DNA of 43,732 nt from an uncultured Pseudomonadota bacterium. GTDB taxonomy: Bacteria; Myxococcota_A; UBA796; SXON01. Under the pieces are notes generated by a model. It saw nothing but the letters and a program-made list of their open reading frames with translations. It was not told the DNA's origin and searched no databases. Below, one piece after another: positions 28,561 through 43,732 of this stretch. Both the position numbers and the translations under genes were made by a program. Every line of letters starts with the position of its first letter. Position 1 is the first letter of the stretch. The DNA is taken from NCBI GenBank assembly GCA_903844155.1, contig CAIMSU010000047.1, forward strand, positions 1 to 43,732. The letters are read 5' to 3'.

Positions 28561-28950
28561 ATGAGCTTCCTATTTGACGACGACAACGAGTTCGAAGAAG
28601 TAGACGAAGAAGAGACCGACGAGGAGTCGGAAGACGACGAGGAGTCCGACGACGACGAGTCCGACGACGACGAGTCCGACGACGACGAGTCCGACGACGA
28701 CCAGGACGACGGCGAAGAGGACGAGGAAGCAGCGAAGCTCGAACGCATCGAGAAGGCGTTCCGTACCGAGCGGACGCGGGTTCGCGCCTGCGACGACATC
28801 GCCGAGCTGCGCACCATGCGCCATGACTACCAGGACATCTTGTCCCGGGCGACAGGCGTCGGCCGGCTTCGCATGCACGACCTCATCGAGCTTGTCGACG
28901 AGCAGGTGACCAACCTCAAGGCCAAGCGGTTCGCCGCCGGGAGGCCGTGA
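28561..28950 (+). CDS. hypothetical protein with very acidic N-terminus
   Basis: 129 residues behind AGGAG at 28552. Residues 6-57 are almost all Asp/Glu/Ser, coded by a tandem TCCGACGACGACGAG repeat (28648-28700). Residues 58-129 form a helical domain with RVRACDDIAELRTMRHDYQ and MHDLIELVDEQVTNLKAKR that is also present at the start of the next protein. The acidic tail may mimic DNA or be a flexible spacer. Overlaps the next gene by 1 nt. Confidence 0.75.
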   Translation: MSFLFDDDNEFEEVDEEETDEESEDDEESDDDESDDDESDDDESDDDQDDGEEDEEAAKLERIEKAFRTERTRVRACDDIAELRTMRHDYQDILSRATGVGRLRMHDLIELVDEQVTNLKAKRFAAGRP

Positions 28951-30158
28951 TGGGCGCGACCGACCGCGAATTCCAGGCGCAGAGCGCGTTCATCGCCGCG
29001 TGCGACGACCCGAACACGCTCCTCGACTGGATGCGCGAGTACCGCGACAGCGAGCGCGCTGCGGTCGGTCGCGGGGACGACGAGGCCGCCCGCCAGATGG
29101 ACGATCTGGCCGAGCTGGCCGAGGACAGAGCGATCGAGCTGAAGGCGGCGCAGATCGTTGCTTCGAGGCGCAAGCCTCGCGCGTCGGAGACGCCCGTGTC
29201 CGCGCCGGCGGCGGCGCCCCTGCCACCGTCGATCCTGGTGGACGACTCCGCGGCCGAGCTGCGGAGGGTGAAGGAGGAGCTTGCGGCGAGCCGGGAGGCG
29301 CAGGGGAAGGCAGAGCGCGAGCAAGCCCGAGCCGAGCGTGAGCGCATCGCGGCGATTGAGGCCGGGAAGGAGCGTGAGCGCGAGGCCGCTTCGGCGAAGG
29401 CCGCCGCGGAACAGGCGGCGTGGGCGTCAGCGCCTGCCGTGAACGCGCAGCCGGTGCCGTTCAACAGATCACCGGAGCGCGTGGCTCACCGCGAGCTTGT
29501 CAGGGAGAACGAGCGTCTCCGCCTCGCTGCCGCGCGGGCGCTCGCAGCCCAGAAGTCTGCCTCCCCCGCGCAGCCGCTCGCCGGTTTACCGACAGGGGCC
29601 TCCCGGCCCGCGCAAGCCTTGCCGCTGGCACCACTTGGTCGGGCAGCGCCGACGGATGCGCGGGCGTCGGCAGCTACGACGGTCCGGCCGGCGGTGGCGA
29701 CGCAACCGCCTACGCAGTCGCGCCCCGCTCCCACGACCGCGATGGCCAGCCCGCGAGTCGCCGCAAGTGCAGAGTTGACCCCGCTCGCCCGCCTCTTCCA
29801 ACAGAGGCTCACCGAGACCACGCCGACCACGCCGACCACGCCGACCACGCCGACCGCGCAGGGGGAGCCCCCGCGGCCACGGGCAACGGCTCCCCCGCCG
29901 CGGGCGCCGGACGCTCCCGTCGCGCCGCCCGCCGTTGACCCCGTGGACGATCTCCCGCAGCACACCGGCGCGGACCTCCTCGCCTACCGAACCTGGCTCG
30001 GCGTCGATCAGCGTGCGCTCGCCGCCAAGTTCGGCGTCGGGCAGGGCACGATCTCCAAGGGCGAGAGCCGGCCGACTACCCTGCTCGGCCCCGCGTTGCG
30101 GAAGGCCCTCCACGAGGCGATGAGTGAGCCCAGGCCGGACGTTGGAGGTGCGCCGTGA
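28950..30158 (+). CDS. coiled-coil protein with C-terminal XRE-like HTH
   Basis: ATG 28950 overlaps the previous TGA. About 402 residues: an N-terminal domain (FIAACDDPNTLLDWMREY, MDDLAELAEDRAIELKAAQ) shared with 28561-28950, a coiled-coil rich in Glu/Ala/Arg (about 85-160), a Pro/Ala/Thr spacer with a TPT repeat (DNA accacgccg units near 29818-29855), and residues about 340-392 an HTH: LGVDQRALAAKFGVGQGTIS. Probably a DNA-binding regulator or element maintenance protein. Overlaps the next gene by 4 nt. Confidence 0.75.
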   Translation: MGATDREFQAQSAFIAACDDPNTLLDWMREYRDSERAAVGRGDDEAARQMDDLAELAEDRAIELKAAQIVASRRKPRASETPVSAPAAAPLPPSILVDDSAAELRRVKEELAASREAQGKAEREQARAERERIAAIEAGKEREREAASAKAAAEQAAWASAPAVNAQPVPFNRSPERVAHRELVRENERLRLAAARALAAQKSASPAQPLAGLPTGASRPAQALPLAPLGRAAPTDARASAATTVRPAVATQPPTQSRPAPTTAMASPRVAASAELTPLARLFQQRLTETTPTTPTTPTTPTAQGEPPRPRATAPPPRAPDAPVAPPAVDPVDDLPQHTGADLLAYRTWLGVDQRALAAKFGVGQGTISKGESRPTTLLGPALRKALHEAMSEPRPDVGGAP

Positions 30159-30655: not shown

Positions 30656-30700
30656 CGACCGAAAACTATGTCAAGTAGAACCGGCACTCTGGAGCCCCCC

Positions 30701-32332
30701 ATGACCCTGATCGGAGCCGCGTATCTGCGGTGCAGTGACCCCCGGCAAGACAAATCGGTCCAACAACAAAAAGACGAGATTGAACGCCGTGCTGCTGCCG
30801 ACGGCGTGGTCATCCCGGCCTCCAACTGGTTCGTTGACGAAGGGATCAGCGGGCGCAACGCCAAGAAGCGGGCCGCCTACCAGTCGCTCCTGCGCGCCGC
30901 CGAGGGCCAGCGTGATTCTCGCCTCGGCCGCCGGGCCGTTCGCGTGCAGGGAATTGACCGGCTTTACGTCTGGGCTTTCTCGCGCGTCGCGCGCAACATG
31001 TTCGATTGCCTCAAGGCATTGGCCACGCTCGACGAGGCCGACATCGACGTGATCTCGCTCTCAGAGCCCGACGCCGGAGACAAGTCTTTCCGTAAGTTGA
31101 TCCGACCGATCCTCGCGTGGCTGGCCGAGCGTTACAGCGAGGAGCTGTCGCACAATGTGAAGCGCGGAATGCAATCGCAAGCAGCGAAGGGCTTCTGGCA
31201 GAACGGGCACGCGCCCCACGGCTACGCGCTCCAGAAGGTCGAGGGCGGGACGCGCCTCGCCGTCACCGACGAGACCCGGGCCGACTTCGAGACGGTCCAG
31301 CGCATCTTCCGCGAGTACCTCGTGGGCAAAGACGGTCAGAAGCGGCTCACCGAAAAGCTTACCCGCGAGGGTGTCCGACCGCCGAGTCGCGAGGTCGCCC
31401 GTGAGCGGTTCGCCGGAACGTGGCGGCCAAAGCATGTTCAGCAGATCCTCACGAACGTGACGTACTGCGGGCACCTCGTCCAGAACGGAACGACGGTCGC
31501 GCGCAACTGCCATGAGGCTGCGGTTTCCGACGAGGACTTCGCTCGCGTCGCCGCCCTGCGCAAACTCAAGGATCGGAACAAGCACGAGGGCGGGAACGGC
31601 AACCACGCGATCCACATGAGCGAACGCGGCGTCCTGACGCCGTGGCTGCGCTGCGGGAGCTGCGGCGGGACCATCGCGGTGACGGGCGGCGGGCATTCCG
31701 GAAACGTGCGCCACTACTACACCTGCTCCACGCGCACCGAGAACAAGGCGCTTTGCACCGGCCTGTCAGTGCGCGTCGAGAAGCTGGATGCGGCCGTGCT
31801 CGACTTCATCCACGAGGAGGCGCTCTCCCCCGAGAGCGTCCGCGAGATGATCGACCAGGGCGTGGTCGCGCTCGCCGACCAGCCCGACGAGGTTCAGGCC
31901 GAGCGCGCCCGGCTCGCCAACGACATCGCCGAGTTGGACCAGCGCATCCGCAAGATCGGCCTCCAGGTCGCGGACGACATCCTCACCGGTGACGACGCCA
32001 AGGCGATCAACGCGCCGCTGATCACGCGGCGGGAGTCGCTCAAGTTGCGCCTCGCCAACCTCCCCGTGCGCAAGGCGGTCCCCACGCCCGACCGGATGGA
32101 CCCGACCAAGTTCCGCGCCGCCGTGTTGGAGGCGTGGAGCACCCGCCCCCTCGTGGAGCGCCGCGAAGCGTTGGATCGCCTCGTCGAAAAGATCACCCTG
32201 TCAGACGGCGGCGCCCATGTCGACTACCGCGTCAAGGACGAACAGATCGCGTTTCACCAGCCTGACCCCTCAGGCCCGCCAAACCACCCCAAGTCATCAG
32301 GGCGATTCCGACTGAATTCCCGCGAAATATAG
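30701..32332 (+). CDS. large serine recombinase
   Basis: ATG 30701 with GGAG at 30692 (ATG 30668 is possible); 543 residues. Catalytic domain: AAYLRCSDPRQDKSVQQQ with Ser12, then WAFSRVARN and helix E. Recombinase domain: GFWQNGHAPHGYALQ to KHVQQILTNVTYCGHLVQNG. Zinc ribbon: LRCGSCGGT and YYTCSTRTENKALCTG. A coiled-coil (about 400-445) follows, and a tail LVEKITLSDGGAHVDYRV. It integrates or excises an element at att sites. The gene is intact; flanking repeats may mark ends. Confidence 0.95.
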   Translation: MTLIGAAYLRCSDPRQDKSVQQQKDEIERRAAADGVVIPASNWFVDEGISGRNAKKRAAYQSLLRAAEGQRDSRLGRRAVRVQGIDRLYVWAFSRVARNMFDCLKALATLDEADIDVISLSEPDAGDKSFRKLIRPILAWLAERYSEELSHNVKRGMQSQAAKGFWQNGHAPHGYALQKVEGGTRLAVTDETRADFETVQRIFREYLVGKDGQKRLTEKLTREGVRPPSREVARERFAGTWRPKHVQQILTNVTYCGHLVQNGTTVARNCHEAAVSDEDFARVAALRKLKDRNKHEGGNGNHAIHMSERGVLTPWLRCGSCGGTIAVTGGGHSGNVRHYYTCSTRTENKALCTGLSVRVEKLDAAVLDFIHEEALSPESVREMIDQGVVALADQPDEVQAERARLANDIAELDQRIRKIGLQVADDILTGDDAKAINAPLITRRESLKLRLANLPVRKAVPTPDRMDPTKFRAAVLEAWSTRPLVERREALDRLVEKITLSDGGAHVDYRVKDEQIAFHQPDPSGPPNHPKSSGRFRLNSREI

Positions 32333-32367: not shown

Positions 32368-32386
32368 GCCTCGTGCCCCGTACTCG

Positions 32387-32470
32387 GTGCTCCGTGCTCC
32401 GTGCTCCGTGCTCCGTGCTCCGTGCTCCGTGCTCCGTGCTCCGTGCTCCGTGCTCCGTGCTCCGTGCTTC
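32387..32470. repeat. heptamer tandem array GTGCTCC x11
   Basis: Eleven perfect copies of GTGCTCC from 32387 to 32463, with a twelfth degenerate copy GTGCTTC (32464-32470). Seven is not a multiple of three, so no protein use is likely. It lies between the recombinase and the palindrome. Copy number probably varies by slippage. Confidence 0.95.
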
Positions 32471-32750: not shown

Positions 32751-34976
32751 CTACGCGAGCACGTCCACCGCGATCTCCTTCGCCCTCACGAGCCGCCAGC
32801 CGGGCTGCAACGCTCGGGTCGCCCGGATCATTGCGTCCGCCATCCCACGCCCCACGATGAGCCAGCGCTTCTCCTCCCTCGCCCGCGCCGCGGTCACGTA
32901 GTACCCCCGCATCTCAGGTCCCTGCTGGGGCGCCACGGGGGCCATCCCCGCATCAAGTTTCGCGGGAACACCATCAGTGAACGCGCGGGCCGACAGGGGC
33001 TCAGGCACGCTCACGGCGTCCGGGTCGGCCGCCCCGGTCAGTGGGGCGGAGGCGGCAGCAAGCGCTGCAGGCGCGCTCGCCGCCACCGGCTCCGGCACCG
33101 CGATGGCCCTGACTTCCGGGGCCGCGGGGATGGCCGGCTCCTTGATGTTCCGCCTGACTCGGGCGCGCGGAGGCGCTGCCGCAATGCCACGTTTGACCCT
33201 GTACTTTGCGACCCCGTCGGGGGTGTACCCGGCCTTTGCCGCCACCCCTGCGTCAGAGAGCACGCCGATGATGTCGAGGTAGGCGTCAAGGCGTGACGCC
33301 TTCCTCCGTCTCGCCGGGTCCTCGGAGACCGAGGGCACTGGCGTGGCGGCGGTGGTCGCAGGCTGCTCGACATCCGCACCACCACCTTCAGCGGCGACGA
33401 CGACCGCAGCCGCTGAAATGAAGCCTGCGTCGGGCGGGGGCGTCGCAGCGCTCGCGGGCTCGTCCGCGGCTTGAGCGATCGACAGAGGCACCTGCACCGC
33501 CTTCGTGCGCTTCTTCCAGGTGGCTTCAATCCCGTTCCGAGCCCGGTACTGCCGTACCGCCTCGACCGTGACGCCAGCCCGCGTGGCCACCACGCTGTCG
33601 CGCTCCACCCCGAGGATGCCCCTGAACGTGTCCAGCTTCGACGACCGGGGCGGTCGGGCGTTCGGACCTGCCACCGGGGCCGCATCAGGCGCGACATCCA
33701 AGCGCCCAGGAGACAGCGCCAACCCCGCGTCAGAACCGGCCGCCGCGATGGATGGGACGTCGTTTTTCCGCCGGGAGGCTACGACATCCTCACGCGCCAC
33801 GCCCGCGACTTGCCTTACGGCTAGGTCGGCGAGTTGTCCCGGAACATCCCTGTGAGGGTCGGGATTCAAGGCTCGATCGGAGCGGGCCGTCCACGGACTC
33901 GGGGCTCCGGTGACTGGCTCGTCAACAGGAGCAGGCGAGCGCGTGGCGGGCCGCCCACGCGGGCGCGCCGGGATGTCGTGATGCTGCCGATACAGCATCA
34001 CGGTCTTTCGACTGAGAGCAGACAAGGCGGCGATCTCGCCGTCTGACAACACGCCCAGCACGTCGTGGAGCGTGTCCAGCTTCGAGGTCCGTGGGCGGGA
34101 CGCGACGACATCGCCAGTCGCTTTGGCCGCGGATCGCTCTGCCGGAGCGTCCGGGGCGGTCGCCGTCCGCCCGCGTGGGCAAGCCGCGATGCCATGCGCC
34201 TGCCTGTACATCAGGACGGTCTTGCGATTTACAGCGGCCAATCCAGCGACTTCTCGGTCCGGGAGGGTCCCGAGGAGGTGACGGAAGGCGTCCAGCTTCG
34301 ACGTGCGTGGTACCGGTTCTTCCTTCGAGATGGGCAGCCCGACCATAGGGGCACCCTTTCCTATCGGTGTCGGCATTGCTGCCTTCGGCGCCTTGGTCGC
34401 CGTCGATTTCTCCATGCTCAACCTGTACTCTCGCACGTAGTTCTCCGTCACATGAGCCCTTTTGGCGATGTAGCCGTCTGAAGCAGAGCCGAGCAGGTCG
34501 CGGTAGGCGTCCATCCGCTCACGGCGCGTGCCCTCGACCCCGGGCTCGACGGGCGGCGGGGGCGCGCTCGCGGGGACCACGCGCCTCACGGGTTCGCGAG
34601 GGCGGTCGTCCCCCGGACGGGGAGCAGGGCGAGCGAGGCGAGGTTCTGGATCCCTCTGCATCGACGCGAACGGGTATTCAGGCGCTCGCACCGGGCGTTC
34701 GAGCCGGATGGGGGCTGTCGGGAGTGCTGGGGCGGGCGGGACGGGCGCGCCGACCGGCCGGAGGGAGCGGCCGGAGGCCTTCTCCACCGCGGCCATCGCT
34801 TCAGCCTCGGTGCGGAACGTGGGCTCGCCGTCGGCGAGGATGGAGGATGGCCAGATGTACCTGTTGACGCGCCAAAGGCCATCACCGGTACGCAGGACCT
34901 CGATGGTCTTGATCCCGAGTTGGAACGTGCGGGTGGCAGGCGGAGCGGTGTCGTCGGGGTGAGCGGTGGAGGGCAT
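32751..34976 (-). CDS. HTH-module array protein A (six helix-turn-helix repeats)
   Basis: 741 residues. N-terminal domain about 16-70 (TIEVLRTGDGLWRVNRYIW). Then about 40-residue modules starting LDAFRHLLG-type: residues 151-187, 224-266, 296-338, 368-410 (degenerate), 444-486 and 559-603. Each reads LD-x-x-x-x-x-LG-x-x-x-D-x-x-[IV]A-x-x-A-x-V-x-x-x-x-V-x-x-YR and ends in basic PRGR-like residues. The first five start every 72-76 residues. The C-terminal domain 689-741 (RGYYVTAARAR, IRATRALQPGWRLVRA) is shared with the gene at 42176. Probably a modular DNA-binding protein; target unknown. Confidence 0.8.
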   Translation of the reverse strand: MPSTAHPDDTAPPATRTFQLGIKTIEVLRTGDGLWRVNRYIWPSSILADGEPTFRTEAEAMAAVEKASGRSLRPVGAPVPPAPALPTAPIRLERPVRAPEYPFASMQRDPEPRLARPAPRPGDDRPREPVRRVVPASAPPPPVEPGVEGTRRERMDAYRDLLGSASDGYIAKRAHVTENYVREYRLSMEKSTATKAPKAAMPTPIGKGAPMVGLPISKEEPVPRTSKLDAFRHLLGTLPDREVAGLAAVNRKTVLMYRQAHGIAACPRGRTATAPDAPAERSAAKATGDVVASRPRTSKLDTLHDVLGVLSDGEIAALSALSRKTVMLYRQHHDIPARPRGRPATRSPAPVDEPVTGAPSPWTARSDRALNPDPHRDVPGQLADLAVRQVAGVAREDVVASRRKNDVPSIAAAGSDAGLALSPGRLDVAPDAAPVAGPNARPPRSSKLDTFRGILGVERDSVVATRAGVTVEAVRQYRARNGIEATWKKRTKAVQVPLSIAQAADEPASAATPPPDAGFISAAAVVVAAEGGGADVEQPATTAATPVPSVSEDPARRRKASRLDAYLDIIGVLSDAGVAAKAGYTPDGVAKYRVKRGIAAAPPRARVRRNIKEPAIPAAPEVRAIAVPEPVAASAPAALAAASAPLTGAADPDAVSVPEPLSARAFTDGVPAKLDAGMAPVAPQQGPEMRGYYVTAARAREEKRWLIVGRGMADAMIRATRALQPGWRLVRAKEIAVDVLA

Positions 34977-35679
34977 GTGGCGGCGCCGCTATCCCGGATG
35001 CGGCCGGGCTCGGACATTTGCGGCTCAACGGCCGCGACCAGTGCTTGAGCCGGTAGCCGCCGCGGATCACGCGGCGTTCGACGAGCTTGTGCTCCTCGAA
35101 GGCCGAGAGGAACGCGGGCCCAAGCTGGCCGGAAAACCGTCCGGCCTTCACGATCGTGCCGACCCAACGCCACAGGTCGTCGAGCGCAGGGATCGGGTGG
35201 GTCGACCAGCTCTCCGCGTCCAGATCGATCTCGTGGAACCCGACGACGCCACCGGGCCGCACGAGCCGGATGAGTTGGGCGACAGCGGCCGCAGGATCCG
35301 GCTGATGGATGATGACGAGCCGTCCGATGACGGCGTCGAAGCGGCGCTCGCCGGCCAGGACTTCGAGCGAGTCGAGGTCGCCTTGGACGAAGCGCACGTC
35401 GGCGAGCTGCTTCTGGTGCGCGCCCGCCATCGCGAGGGAGAGAGCATCTGCGCCGTGATCGACGCCGATCACCCCGCCGGAGGGCCCGATCAGGTCGGCC
35501 GCGACGAACAAGACGTCGCCGGCCCCGGCGCCGATGTCGAGCACACGCATGCCCGGCTCAAGCCCCGCGCCCTGCAGGAAGTGGCGGGTGGAAGGCCGAA
35601 GGAACGCGCCCTGGGCCTCCAGACGCCGTAGCTCCGCCTCTGAGTGTTGCAGGACGTAGCGGTCGCCGGGGTTGGACAT
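34882..35679 (-). CDS. SAM-dependent methyltransferase, C-terminus replaced
   Basis: ATG 35679 with GGAG just upstream; 265 residues. Class I SAM fold: MRVLDIGAGAGDVLFVAADL, GVIGVDHGADAL, VRFVQGDLDSL, FDAVIGRLVIIHQPDP and VRPGGVVGFHEIDLD. After RGGYRLKHWSRPL the sequence becomes Pro/His/Arg-rich junk and runs 95 nt into gene A, so the native C-terminal part was probably lost when gene A DNA arrived. It may be inactive. Substrate unknown. Confidence 0.75.
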   Translation of the reverse strand: MSNPGDRYVLQHSEAELRRLEAQGAFLRPSTRHFLQGAGLEPGMRVLDIGAGAGDVLFVAADLIGPSGGVIGVDHGADALSLAMAGAHQKQLADVRFVQGDLDSLEVLAGERRFDAVIGRLVIIHQPDPAAAVAQLIRLVRPGGVVGFHEIDLDAESWSTHPIPALDDLWRWVGTIVKAGRFSGQLGPAFLSAFEEHKLVERRVIRGGYRLKHWSRPLSRKCPSPAASGIAAPPHALHRSPRRHRSACHPHVPTRDQDHRGPAYR

Positions 35680-35934
35680 GGGGAACTCCAAGACGCAGTA
35701 CGGAGAGCGCTGACGGAAGCTACCGTCATCGGTCGGACGAAGGACAGCGTCCGGCGGCGTCGCCAGTGGGGGGCACGAGGGCAGCTCGTGCGCGGATGCA
35801 CACGCTCTGCTCGCGACGTCCTGCTCCTCGCGGCGGGATCCCGACTGGCCACGGAATGCAGCGGGATGCCGTTGGCACGCGACCCCTTATCGGGTGACGG
35901 GCCTTGATGCCGTGGGCGGGGATTACAGGGCGAG

Positions 35935-39058: not shown

Positions 39059-40477
39059 TCACCCCGCGATTCGACAAAACTCCCCAACATCCACCCCAAT
39101 CGCCTTGAGCATGGCCGTCACCGTCCTCGCATGGAAGTGTGTGTTGCGCTCGTGCCCCGGCAGGGTGAACTTGCGCCCACCCTTTCGATAGACCGTGACC
39201 TCGCTCCCCTTCGACGACTGGATCTCGCACTGAAAGTGCCTTTCCAGCAGGGCAAACAGCGTCACCCGCCGAACCTGGGGTACGCGCACCCGAGGGTCGC
39301 GCCCGACATCTGCGAGGGCGACACGCTCGCATGCGGCCGCCACTGCCTCCCCACCGTCGCTCTGGTCCGACCCGGTCACCGCCTCAACCGTCGCCTCCGC
39401 TGGTCGATCGGCCGCATCCCACAGCCACAGCATGTGACGATGCAGAGGCCGTAGTAACCCGACTGCCCAGGGGACGACCTCGGGGCCGACAGGCAGCCAC
39501 GGCATCGACGGATGACGGGGCATCCCGTCGAGCGCGATCTCCACCGCGGGGTCTCCCGGCCGGTTGACCACATGGTCGCGAACGCCAGCCTCGCTGGGCT
39601 GGATCACGATGACGCCTGCGACGTGCGCGGTCTCCCAGATCCACGTCGCCCAGATCCCAGGACCAACCTCCACGATGTGGTCCTCCGGTCGATACGTGCG
39701 GGCGAGCAGCGCCTTCACCTCCGTCAGGTCGCTGCCCATTCCTCGCAGCTCCGCAGCCAGCAACGCCGGCTCACCGCGCACCGTCAGCCCGGGCGTCCGC
39801 GTGATAACGTCGGCGATCCGGCGTTCGTCGCCCCAACTTCCAGTCTGCCACATCCGCTGGCAAAACTCGGCGTCCTCCCGACTCGGCGCGAGGATGCGGC
39901 GAGGCACCCCATCTTCGTCCCGTTCTACGTAGACAAACCACGTCTTGCTGGCGAGGAGCCATCCCAGCCAGTGGTCCAGGCCGACCAGCGCGACGGCGTG
40001 ACCAGTCCCTTCCCGGTGGACGAAGTCGTCCAGCCATTCGCCAAACTCACCATGCAACCGGACGAACTTGTCAACTGGCCGGCCGTCGTCACGGGACGGG
40101 CGCTTGTTGGCACGCGTGGCTGCGTGGGTCGACAGCCACTCTTGAAAACCCTCGCGGATCAGCAGGGCGTAGGCGTCGCCGTTGTAGAGGGCCTCGGCGG
40201 CGGTGCCGGGGAGGCCCACCATCTGTTCCCGGAGGGCGCGCAGGTGGCCGAGCAGGTCGCGCAGCCTGGCGAGGTGCTTCGCGTCGACGGTCTTCGTGAA
40301 GTGCGAGGGGAGTGCGTAGTCAGCGTCTTTCGGCACCGTGATCGGGCGTTCTCGCGCCGCCATCCCCTGGATGACTGCCTCTTCCGGCGTGCCCGTTCGT
40401 GCGTTGGGCGCGAGCGCGCGTCGCAGGCGCTCACGCTGCTCGGCATGAAACGCCACGGTGTCGTCCGTACCGCTCAC
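39059..40477 (-). CDS. large protein with C-terminal HicA-like domain
   Basis: GTG 40477 overlapping the upstream gene by 4 nt; 472 residues. The long N-terminal part is unrecognised (LVGLDHWLGWLLASKTWFV, EVGPGIWATWIWETAHVAG). Residues about 398-472 read LFALLERHFQCEIQSSKGSE, YRKGGRKFTLPGHERN and TVTAMLKAIGVDVGEF, matching the dsRBD-like HicA/YcfA toxin fold. The catalytic His after KGS is Glu here, so RNA binding rather than cleavage is likely. No hicB gene is adjacent. Confidence 0.72.
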   Translation of the reverse strand: MSGTDDTVAFHAEQRERLRRALAPNARTGTPEEAVIQGMAARERPITVPKDADYALPSHFTKTVDAKHLARLRDLLGHLRALREQMVGLPGTAAEALYNGDAYALLIREGFQEWLSTHAATRANKRPSRDDGRPVDKFVRLHGEFGEWLDDFVHREGTGHAVALVGLDHWLGWLLASKTWFVYVERDEDGVPRRILAPSREDAEFCQRMWQTGSWGDERRIADVITRTPGLTVRGEPALLAAELRGMGSDLTEVKALLARTYRPEDHIVEVGPGIWATWIWETAHVAGVIVIQPSEAGVRDHVVNRPGDPAVEIALDGMPRHPSMPWLPVGPEVVPWAVGLLRPLHRHMLWLWDAADRPAEATVEAVTGSDQSDGGEAVAAACERVALADVGRDPRVRVPQVRRVTLFALLERHFQCEIQSSKGSEVTVYRKGGRKFTLPGHERNTHFHARTVTAMLKAIGVDVGEFCRIAG

Positions 40478-42036
40478 GTCGCCAGCACCGGGCCGAACGT
40501 CTGATTCGCGGGCTGCGCCCCGCCCGCCGCCTTGCGGACTCGCTTCACCATCCACTCAAAGTGGTCGGCGTCGAGGTCGCGTCCGGCGATGTCATTCGTC
40601 CATCCGATGCCCCCGTCGTGCAGTAGAGGCGTGCGCCCGAGATCGTCAAAAGCCCGATACGCCGGAGTCTCCCACGCATACCGCCCGCTGATGTAGGGGT
40701 TGCTGCCGATCCAGAACTGGGTCGCCTCGATGGCGTTTCGCCGCCTCGCGTCATTACGGTTGAGGTCCTCGTCCAGAGTGACCGGGTCCAGCACGGCCAG
40801 GGTCCCTTCGCCGACGAGGCTGAAGCCGCCGCTTCCGGCGTCGCCCGTCTGCTCGCTGCCTTCGTCGCGGACAAACGCGGGGCAGACTCCGCCGTGCTCA
40901 CCGACGAGGCGCACCCGGCGGGTGAAGCCGTAGCACTCCCAGCCAGTCGGAATCGGCGCGGCGGGTGGGAGAAAGACAGCGATGGCAGGGACGTTCTCGG
41001 GGCACGGCTCCGGCCAGTCCAGAACGACGCGCGGGGCAATCGCGATGTGCATCGTGCCGGTGCTGATGCGCGTGACCCCCGTCTCCTTGTCGTGATCGGC
41101 GGAGGGCAGCGTGTCCGGCTCCTCCGGCGGTGGCGCGGCGGGCGCGTCATGGGGCGGCAGGGGCTGCGTTGTCCGGACGCGCGCCTGCCAGGATGCGAAC
41201 GCCGCCGAGAGCGTCGGCCCCACCGCGATCACGGTGCGCGTCCAGGCGTCGGCGACGACCCAGCCGGACTCGTCCTCGCCGATGCGCCCCTCCCACAGCG
41301 CCTCGCGGAGCCGCCAGAGTCCGCGCATCCAGGCACCGCCCGCGCCGCCGGGCATCACGCATGGCATGTAGACGCGCCCCTTCACGAGCTTCGCCGGGTC
41401 CATCTCGGCGAGCATGCCGGCGAGGGCTTCGGTGTCATGCCCGTCGGGATCCAGGTCGGGACGGCAGTAGAAACGGATGGGCGGCGTCTGAGCGGGCTTG
41501 GCGTAGGGGTCCACGGCGAACGGAAGGTCGGGTTGGTGACGGCCCCACGTCCACAGGTCGCCAGTGGTTTGACAGGCCTCGACGCGCGTACCGTCGTCGC
41601 CGTAGGTGATGTCGACGTAGGCGGGGCCTTCTGAGATGCGGAGCTTGCCCGGAAACCGGTGCGGTCCCGGCATGATCCTCGGCTCTGTATCTGGCCATTT
41701 CGGCTCCATGACGCGCAGATGTTCCGGCATGTCGGGGAACTCGAATTGCGGGGGTGGCCCGCCGTTCACGTCCAGCGACCAGACGGGGTGGGAGATGAGA
41801 AACGTCGGGTTCTCCTGGTCACGCAGGTAGAGGAGGCTGTTGCCGGGTCCAGCGGTGACGTCCGCGACAAGCTGGCCGCCGAGGATCTCGCGGACCTTCT
41901 CGGTGAGCCGCATCGCGTCGCTGATCCGCGGGAGGGAGCGGGCGAGGGCGTTCTGGGCGTCAACCTGGGGGACGACGCCGAGGGTGACCATGCCCTCGCG
42001 GGCGGCGTAGGCGTCGGGCGGTTCGGGGTTGGGCAT
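40474..42036 (-). CDS. hypothetical protein coupled to the HicA-domain gene
   Basis: ATG 42036, 520 residues; the upstream open frame is shadow. N-terminal third with LTEKVREILGGQLVADVTA, GNSLLYLRDQENPTFLIS and VWSLDVNGGPPPQFEFPDMP; later DESGWVVADAWTRTVIAVGP and TGTMHIAIAPRVVLDWPEPC, and an end VKRVRKAAGGAQPANQTFG. No signal, no membrane span, no known motif. The 4-nt overlap with the HicA-like gene and the same direction as array gene B suggest a three-gene unit. Confidence 0.68.
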   Translation of the reverse strand: MPNPEPPDAYAAREGMVTLGVVPQVDAQNALARSLPRISDAMRLTEKVREILGGQLVADVTAGPGNSLLYLRDQENPTFLISHPVWSLDVNGGPPPQFEFPDMPEHLRVMEPKWPDTEPRIMPGPHRFPGKLRISEGPAYVDITYGDDGTRVEACQTTGDLWTWGRHQPDLPFAVDPYAKPAQTPPIRFYCRPDLDPDGHDTEALAGMLAEMDPAKLVKGRVYMPCVMPGGAGGAWMRGLWRLREALWEGRIGEDESGWVVADAWTRTVIAVGPTLSAAFASWQARVRTTQPLPPHDAPAAPPPEEPDTLPSADHDKETGVTRISTGTMHIAIAPRVVLDWPEPCPENVPAIAVFLPPAAPIPTGWECYGFTRRVRLVGEHGGVCPAFVRDEGSEQTGDAGSGGFSLVGEGTLAVLDPVTLDEDLNRNDARRRNAIEATQFWIGSNPYISGRYAWETPAYRAFDDLGRTPLLHDGGIGWTNDIAGRDLDADHFEWMVKRVRKAAGGAQPANQTFGPVLAT

Positions 42037-42175
42037 GTGGGCTCCGAACCCGGAATGTAGCGGACCGAGGGACGGGGCGACGGTCGAGGAGCGCGTGAGC
42101 GATGAAGCGCGGCTGGGCAAACTCTGCGCGTGCAACGCCCATGGGCGGACGCGGGTCGGACGTGACCGAAGCCGG

Positions 42176-43732
42176 TCAGTCGGACGAAGCCTCCGTCAAG
42201 ACCTCCCCCGCGTCCCACCCCCGGATGATCCGCCAGCCAGCGTCCTCGACCAACGACCGCGTCGCCGTTCGCATCGCCTCCGCGATGTCCGCGGCGAGGA
42301 CGACGTGCCGCACCCGCTGGCCGTCGCGCTCGGCGAGGATGTAGTAGCCGCGCGTCACGAGTCGGCCTGTGGCGGCAACGCCGAGCCCGGCGCGGACCGT
42401 GACCGTCGACAGCGTCGGCGACTCATCAGCGCCCACGACCGCAGCGGCTTCCAGCGGTGCCGGGGCGCGGGCTTCGCGGGACCGAGGACGTCGTGGCCGC
42501 CCGGGTTGCACCGGCGCCCTCGGAATCCCAAGCCTCGTTCGGTACTTTTGGACGACGGTGGTGCTGACGCCGGCCAAATCGGCGATGTCGGTGTCGAGGA
42601 GGACGCCAAGATCGGACCGGAAGGGGTCCACGCGAGACGGTATCTTCGGCTTCGCGGGCGGTGGCGGGGCATGCACGGGCTTCGCGCGCGCTGGACGGGG
42701 CGGAGCGGGGATGCGCCGGAGCGCCCGGTACTGCGCCACCGCCTGACGGGTCACCCCGACACGCACCGCAACCTCGTCGTCGCTCAGCACGCCGACGATG
42801 TCACGGTGATCGTCGAGGACGGACCCGCGTCCGCGTGGCGGCACCTCGGCGAAGGTCGGCGGAGGGTCCGGTTCGCCGACCGGCGGCCTGACATTCGGCG
42901 GCGACGACGCGACAACCGGTGAGGCGACGCCCCTCGCCTTCCGATGCGCGACCACGGCCGCGACCCCGACGCCCGCCAGCGTCGCGGCGATGTGGTCCGG
43001 CTCGACACCGATCAAGTGGGCGTGCGGGGCGAGCTTTGATGGCCTCCCGCGAGGAGGGGCTGGATGACCCGCGCCTCGCCGCTCGTGGGTACCCACCCCA
43101 ACGCGCCCGCTGACGTCGGCGTCAGCCGGGACGTCGGGACGGTGGACAGGGGCCGAAAGCCCCGAGCAAGGTCCCTCGGCGACCTCAGACGACACGGACC
43201 CAGTCTCCAATGGCGCTGGTGTCGACGTGTTCGTCGTGGCCGGTAGGCTGACGGCGGCGGCGACCGCCTCCGGGGTCTCTGCCGGTACCTGCTTCTGAGG
43301 CTCCACCGTCTCGCTCACGTCCACCCCCGGCCCGCTCTCCGTCACCACCCGTTCCGACGCTGCCCTCGTCACCCGCCCCGACGCCGAGATCCCTCGCGCA
43401 ACACGATACTCGACGACCGACTTGCGATTCATCCCCGCCATCGTCGCGATCTCGTGATCCGGACGGGTCCCCATGACAGAGAGGAAGGCGTCAAGCTTCG
43501 ACCGTCGCAGGCGACGACCCGTAGGGGTCCGAGGCTCCGGTGCCTCGCCCACAGCGCGCTCAGCCGGTCGGGCGTTGCGCTCGGGCTGCGGCCCGGCCAG
43601 GGACGGCCGCCGCCGGGGCGTCCCGGAGGTCGTCGGTCGGCTCAACGGAGGTGGAACCGGGATCGCGCGGGTCTGCCGATAGGCGATCACGCTCGACCGG
43701 GTCACCCCGGCGAGCCGCGCCACTTCTGCGTC
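42176..43732 (-). CDS. HTH-module array protein B (partial, continues beyond the window)
   Basis: The frame is open to the right edge; 518 residues visible. Modules (numbered from the GTG codon at 43723): edge to 25, 74-116, 228-270, 300-342 and 362-404, each with LDAFLSVMG-like start, then D-x-x-[IV]A-x-x-A-G-[VM] and a second helix ending in YR or HR plus GI. Proline/Arg/Ala-rich linkers separate them. The C-terminal domain (RGYYILAERDGQ, AMRTATRSLVEDAGWRII) matches that of gene A, so the two are paralogues with different repeat counts. Likely modular DNA-binding protein. Confidence 0.8.
   Translation of the reverse strand, partial: DAEVARLAGVTRSSVIAYRQTRAIPVPPPLSRPTTSGTPRRRPSLAGPQPERNARPAERAVGEAPEPRTPTGRRLRRSKLDAFLSVMGTRPDHEIATMAGMNRKSVVEYRVARGISASGRVTRAASERVVTESGPGVDVSETVEPQKQVPAETPEAVAAAVSLPATTNTSTPAPLETGSVSSEVAEGPCSGLSAPVHRPDVPADADVSGRVGVGTHERRGAGHPAPPRGRPSKLAPHAHLIGVEPDHIAATLAGVGVAAVVAHRKARGVASPVVASSPPNVRPPVGEPDPPPTFAEVPPRGRGSVLDDHRDIVGVLSDDEVAVRVGVTRQAVAQYRALRRIPAPPRPARAKPVHAPPPPAKPKIPSRVDPFRSDLGVLLDTDIADLAGVSTTVVQKYRTRLGIPRAPVQPGRPRRPRSREARAPAPLEAAAVVGADESPTLSTVTVRAGLGVAATGRLVTRGYYILAERDGQRVRHVVLAADIAEAMRTATRSLVEDAGWRIIRGWDAGEVLTEASSD

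Follow-up and report, generated by a model that had tools for sequence, protein, structure and literature searches.

For homing endonucleases in general it is established that tethered modules read the target (PMC3943268, PMC1564403), and the targets contacted by such modules are long, up to about 30 bp (PMC3943268). NUMOD modules, known from I-TevI and I-HmuI, are small, loosely tethered DNA-binding modules, often of the helix-turn-helix (HTH) type, features which the modules described here appear to share. Myb proteins (R1R2R3) are built from tandem HTH repeats, each with a recognition helix of its own, and one composite site is read by them. TALE and zinc-finger arrays are further cases of several DNA-reading repeats placed in one chain, and a comparable layout is predicted for a bacterial gene found in the stretch of 43,732 nucleotides analysed here (the window). 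Its parts are the following:

32751-34976, minus strand: array gene, 741 aa, with an N-terminal domain, six HTH modules and a C-terminal domain
34752-34928, minus strand: N-terminal domain, residues 17-75
34422-34526, minus strand: HTH module 1, residues 151-185, recognition helix TENYVREYR, ends early after helix 3
34182-34307, minus strand: HTH module 2, residues 224-265, recognition helix NRKTVLMYR
33966-34091, minus strand: HTH module 3, residues 296-337, recognition helix SRKTVMLYR
33753-33860, minus strand: HTH module 4, degenerate, residues 373-408
33522-33647, minus strand: HTH module 5, residues 444-485, recognition helix TVEAVRQYR
33177-33302, minus strand: HTH module 6, residues 559-600, recognition helix TPDGVAKYR
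32769-32939, minus strand: C-terminal beta-beta-alpha-beta domain, common to the array family

An independent HMM, prepared from 178 modules which all came from other genomes, matched the protein at residues 153-185 (34.0 bits), 224-265 (63.8), 296-337 (45.4), 373-408 (15.4), 444-485 (58.0) and 560-600 (52.9), while the best domain score across 2000 shuffles of the 741-aa protein was 10.4 bits. Among the 441 ORFs of the window only this gene and a second one at 42176-43732 were matched. In a whole-genome search with a 28-module alignment the six modules were recovered at identical places (module 4 with E=1.8e-4). The six HTH copies and their residue positions, reported earlier in the first-pass annotation, were thus all found again by both searches, and the regular spacing of 72-76 residues noticed there for the first five modules was measured as 73, 72, 72 and 76 residues, followed by 115 residues to the sixth. 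No curated family was found above the cut-off for the window array proteins in Pfam, NCBIfam or PHROGs, a Pfam scan detected no nuclease domain in either of them, and the viral contigs searched contained no close relative of the whole 741-aa protein. AT-hook-like motifs (PRGRP/PRGRT) follow modules in the linkers of the window arrays, for example at residues 266-272 and 337-345 of the 741-aa protein, and Pfam AT_hook gave weak matches in two members of the array family.

The modules follow the pattern R-x-S-[KR]-L-D-x-[FYH]-x4-G-x3-D-x2-[IV]-A-x2-A-G-V-x4-V-x2-[YWF]-R-x3-G-I, in which G13, D17, A21, V31 and R35 are near-invariant; the shorter signature read beforehand (LD-x5-LG ... D-x-x-[IV]A ... 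V-x-x-YR) proved correct in the module alignment. AlphaFold2, applied to 37 natural modules, predicted a tri-helical fold (helices 8-12, 21-28 and 32-42; mean pLDDT 81) in which a turn joins the second helix to the third, which is the HTH arrangement. Foldseek matches of the module were mostly DNA-binding HTHs (FapR, NarL, DosR, Fis), none of them significant (E 0.56), and Pfam searches with single modules gave mostly weak matches to HTH families (HTH_17/MerR/HTH_23). In a profile search of PDB sequences parts of the module aligned with TFE-alpha, and helix 3 aligned with VARRTVAKYREMLGIPSS of the sigma54 RpoN box (2o8k, E=0.024), a similarity that is marginal but suggestive; Pfam gave no match to a sigma54 family, and the resemblance is confined to helix 3. 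The HTH fold was therefore obtained in the models, and no known non-DNA-binding repeat family was encountered.

NUMOD modules and Myb repeats are the fitting analogues, because the array consists of 42-aa modules joined by disordered-looking linkers of about 30-75 aa. The likeness to NUMOD extends to the finding that the array-type module itself occurs behind HNH-intein and GIY-YIG nucleases. In contrast to NUMOD, array modules carry another sequence signature, and the arrays of the window and of its bacterial class are nuclease-free and end in a conserved C-terminal domain, whereas their phage relatives do have a nuclease; NUMOD was not among the Pfam matches listed for window proteins, phage relatives or single modules. 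Unlike Myb, the array is bacterial, its linkers are much longer and it holds 1 to 6 copies, and no Myb match was found for the array modules. TALE proteins differ in their contiguous superhelical repeats of 33-35 residues and in their two base-reading residues, where the array has HTH modules on long linkers with several variable helix-3 positions each. Across 59 aligned modules no conserved Cys/His ligand pattern of C2H2 zinc fingers was present.

The reading preferred here, to which a probability of about 0.62 is given, is that of a lineage-specific family of arrays which bind DNA sequence-specifically, most likely in transcription control, recognise a composite site and contact a partner with their tail. 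Five working HTH modules and one decayed module, strung on flexible linkers, would bind DNA in a sequence-specific manner, and, due to the different recognition helix of each module, a long composite or bipartite site would be read jointly. The array would fix the position on DNA, and the tail would contact a partner, possibly RNA polymerase. We infer DNA binding, composite-site reading and a transcriptional role for the array, while contact of the tail with RNA polymerase is speculative. A long composite site is probably read by the chain, since phage homing enzymes share the module as a putative target reader; on the other hand, the long linkers weaken the notion of one fixed composite site, and phylogenetic footprinting upstream of three orthogroups gave no convincing composite operator. 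If true, bacteria would possess a natural system of modular DNA recognition, made of HTH arrays whose reading helices are conserved one by one.

The array family is large, lineage-specific and undescribed. Its members carry at least one module together with the conserved C-terminal domain and are found in one bacterial class: of its 71 genomes, 60 had modules at E<=1e-8 and 63 at E<=1e-3, and at the stricter threshold none were detected in 308 genomes belonging to the phylum's other classes. The family collection comprises 108 ORFs (a few duplicate records included), which hold 1 to 6 modules each and 270 in all. Named relatives of the module come from MAGs labelled Deltaproteobacteria bacterium or uncultured proteobacterium. 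Many members with two or three modules are chromosomal and syntenic, and in 10 genomes chromosomal orthologs are located beside what we take, from its sequence, to be a dprA-like gene. In the source genome alone, about ten genes with a total of 48 modules are spread over contigs C47 (two), C39, C358 (two), C116, C307, C341, C113, C6 and C198. A full-text search of the literature on tandem or multiple HTH repeats, of incomplete coverage, returned no paper describing the array family. The second array gene, the conserved C-terminal domain and the membership in a large family were all absent from the first-pass annotation. For this family, which lacks annotation, occurs in most genomes of one class and is related to proteins of many Pseudomonas plasmids, the present reading would be a first functional lead.

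For the array gene 32751-34976, dN/dS was calculated against its paralog from contig C39, with which it shares 74% aa identity. Values of 0.20 were obtained for the five intact modules, 0.57 for the linkers and 0.71 for module 4, as well as 0.10 for the N-terminal domain (residues 17-75, known only from the close paralogs on C39 and C358) and 0.20 for the C-terminal domain. Selection acts on the encoded protein and is more strongly purifying in modules than in linkers, and module 4 is decaying, as it evolves like a linker. Recognition helices were compared with modules grouped by synteny and position. At the exposed helix-3 positions (28, 29, 30, 32, 33, 36 and 37) identity reached 69% within syntenic orthologous modules vs 14% between modules, while at exposed positions of helices 1-2 it was 54% within orthologous groups vs 21% between them. 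In an exact permutation the helix-3 contrast was significant (p=1.9e-4), only 0.02% of position subsets exceeding it. Such a contrast is typical of specificity-determining residues; the variability of helix 3 could alternatively reflect protein contacts. The earlier picture of HTH modules strung like beads, with a separately conserved recognition helix in each of them and a decaying fourth copy, was borne out by the AlphaFold2 models, the helix-3 comparison and the dN/dS of module 4. Its analogy with TALE arrays found no support in the sense of a base-per-repeat code: the 42-aa HTH modules on linkers bear no sign of a per-repeat base code.

The same helix-3 residues bear on the idea of an architectural nucleoid-associated protein, in which many HTHs would give high avidity with little sequence preference and the chain would bridge or coat the chromosome. 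Many modules per chain, long linkers with AT-hook-like PRGRP motifs, up to ten genes per genome and chromosomal members of conserved position are in agreement with it. We nevertheless consider it unlikely, because module-specific recognition residues are conserved across orthologs, which is unexpected for non-specific binding, and because the module is used by homing endonucleases, which need a defined site.

Module relatives in phages were sought in IMG/VR contigs with a narrower module alignment. The closest ones lie within an intein of a phage family-A DNA polymerase (PolA), together with an HNH motif. Three modules are present in the alleles L094 and L095 of this intein and one in L093; the alleles are otherwise alike and differ by 96 residues between near-identical modules, so that array length varies within one homing element. 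A second PolA intein, with two modules, was found in a genome of the class (L099) and was supported by matches to Intein_splicing (7.2e-12), HNH_3 (2.6e-4), TIGR01443 and the intein C-terminal region; it is inserted at the identical place of PolA (...YA / S[LQ]YM...) as the phage intein. In Vibrio phages about 3-4 modules stand behind the nuclease of GIY-YIG homing endonucleases (PHROG E 2e-24), whose genes adjoin pieces of a split terminase gene in three of the phages. Across the phage HNH-intein and GIY-YIG homing endonucleases the module is present in 1-5 copies and, judging from its position and homology, is the putative target-reading region of these enzymes. The insertion sites in PolA and terminase should be the targets that these module arrays help to find. 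Natural pairs of module and target are thereby given, which makes module-wise DNA reading testable, and module-by-module reading could be worked out because the related homing enzymes reveal their target at the insertion site. Pseudomonas plasmids and pSB102 (L177-L181) encode free proteins made of almost nothing but 3-4 modules; the annotation given to them is hypothetical or AsnC family, and repA, relaxase or repair genes are their neighbours. The phage family phrog_12058 (768 positions, unknown function) was matched by module proteins at 55-181, 407-524, 497-620 and 587-632, and due to matches at so many different offsets it probably consists of a long row of these modules.

These relatives in phage inteins, phage GIY-YIG enzymes and conjugative plasmids suit a further explanation, namely that the array is an accessory of mobile elements, a nuclease-free derivative of a homing-endonuclease target reader which marks or protects phage, plasmid or integrative-element sites. 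The expanded copies of the source genome are often on small contigs, and the array gene 32751-34976 is situated beside the following gene:

30668-32332, downstream of the array gene: large serine recombinase (Resolvase, Recombinase, Zn ribbon)

Orthologs in conserved chromosomal neighbourhoods throughout the class argue instead for a resident cellular role, and no nuclease domain was found in the free arrays scanned; the accessory role is thus regarded as improbable. DNA similarity between the array gene and its C39 copy ends about 20 bp outside the gene, and no repeats or cassette signals that would make it mobile as a unit were established.

The reading as a DNA-binding transcriptional array depends for its second half on the tail. 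The C-terminal domain was present in 85 of 100 tails after the last module (among those without it are the phage inteins and ORFs interrupted where a contig ends), and in the source genome all ten matches of the domain fell at array genes and none elsewhere; array and tail are therefore tightly coupled. AlphaFold2 predicted a beta-beta-alpha-beta domain with a core of high confidence. Its top Foldseek match in the PDB was T7 Gp2 (4lk0; prob 1.00, E 0.11; TM 0.81 normalised by target, rmsd 1.5), followed by RNAP epsilon/YkzG (prob up to 0.82, E 1.3); ribosomal proteins of similar simple fold also matched, and the top viral fold match was a putative host RNA polymerase inhibitor (E 0.006). A structural relationship links Gp2 with epsilon, and each of them binds RNA polymerase at a site of its own (PMC7722741). 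When the tail was used in profile searches, neither Gp2 nor epsilon sequences were hit; in view of this and of the simple fold, the predicted likeness is taken as a weak lead. The array tail differs from both in being fused to an HTH array. Prohibitin-2, initially a match of the tail, was discarded as it disappeared once a broader alignment was used.

A bolder form of the preferred reading would see here a new class of modular transcription factors, with interchangeable HTH modules shared with phages, shifting specificities and a Gp2/epsilon-like tail brought to RNA polymerase where a long composite site is bound; in such a class specificities would shift by module gain, module loss or helix-3 replacement. 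It is offered tentatively and is doubtful at present. Some HTH repeats are known to serve protein contacts, and proteins that bind other proteins head the fold matches of the tail, so RNA or proteins may also be considered, in place of DNA, as ligands of the array. The nuclease fusions of the module, its weak matches mainly to DNA-binding HTH families and the resemblance of helix 3 to the RpoN box make this highly improbable.

A change of specificity may be seen in the second array gene of the window:

42176-43732, minus strand: second array gene with 5 or more modules, running off the end of the window and of the contig
43658-43732 (cut), 43382-43507, 42923-43045, 42704-42829 and 42521-42640, minus strand: its modules
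42197-42379, minus strand: its C-terminal domain, the same as in the array gene 32751-34976
40474-42135, minus strand: gene downstream of the second array, without a Pfam match

Compared with its counterpart on C116, core and tail are conserved and the reading helices strongly different, with helix-3 positions just 40% identical; dN/dS was 0.58 at helix 3, 0.26 at other exposed positions and 0.10 in the core, for 35 codons only. One C116 module lacks a recognisable counterpart in the window array. The diverged helix-3 positions and this unmatched module suggest that specificity changed after duplication.

The gene 40474-42135 also adjoins the array gene on C116 (about 80% DNA identity) and is elsewhere not linked to arrays; as a functional partner it was dropped, being array-adjacent at only two loci, and no close relative of it was found in the viral contigs searched. 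A methyltransferase-like ORF (34882-35691), on the same strand as the array gene 32751-34976, overlaps the start of this gene with its final 95 bases and may be truncated at the C-terminus. The interval that separates the serine recombinase from the array gene's 3' end contains, at 32372-32468, about 14 tandem copies of the 7-bp unit CGTGCTC, and the 28-bp pattern occurs nowhere else in the source genome. One family member (L098:1921-4431) carries an XRE-like HTH (GVxQGTIS) ahead of modules and tail, and a similar HTH is encoded in the window by a separate gene upstream of the recombinase (28947-30158). Close to the recombinase, a 15-bp coding repeat rich in Asp/Glu/Ser is located at 28617-28719 within the small ORF 28561-28950.
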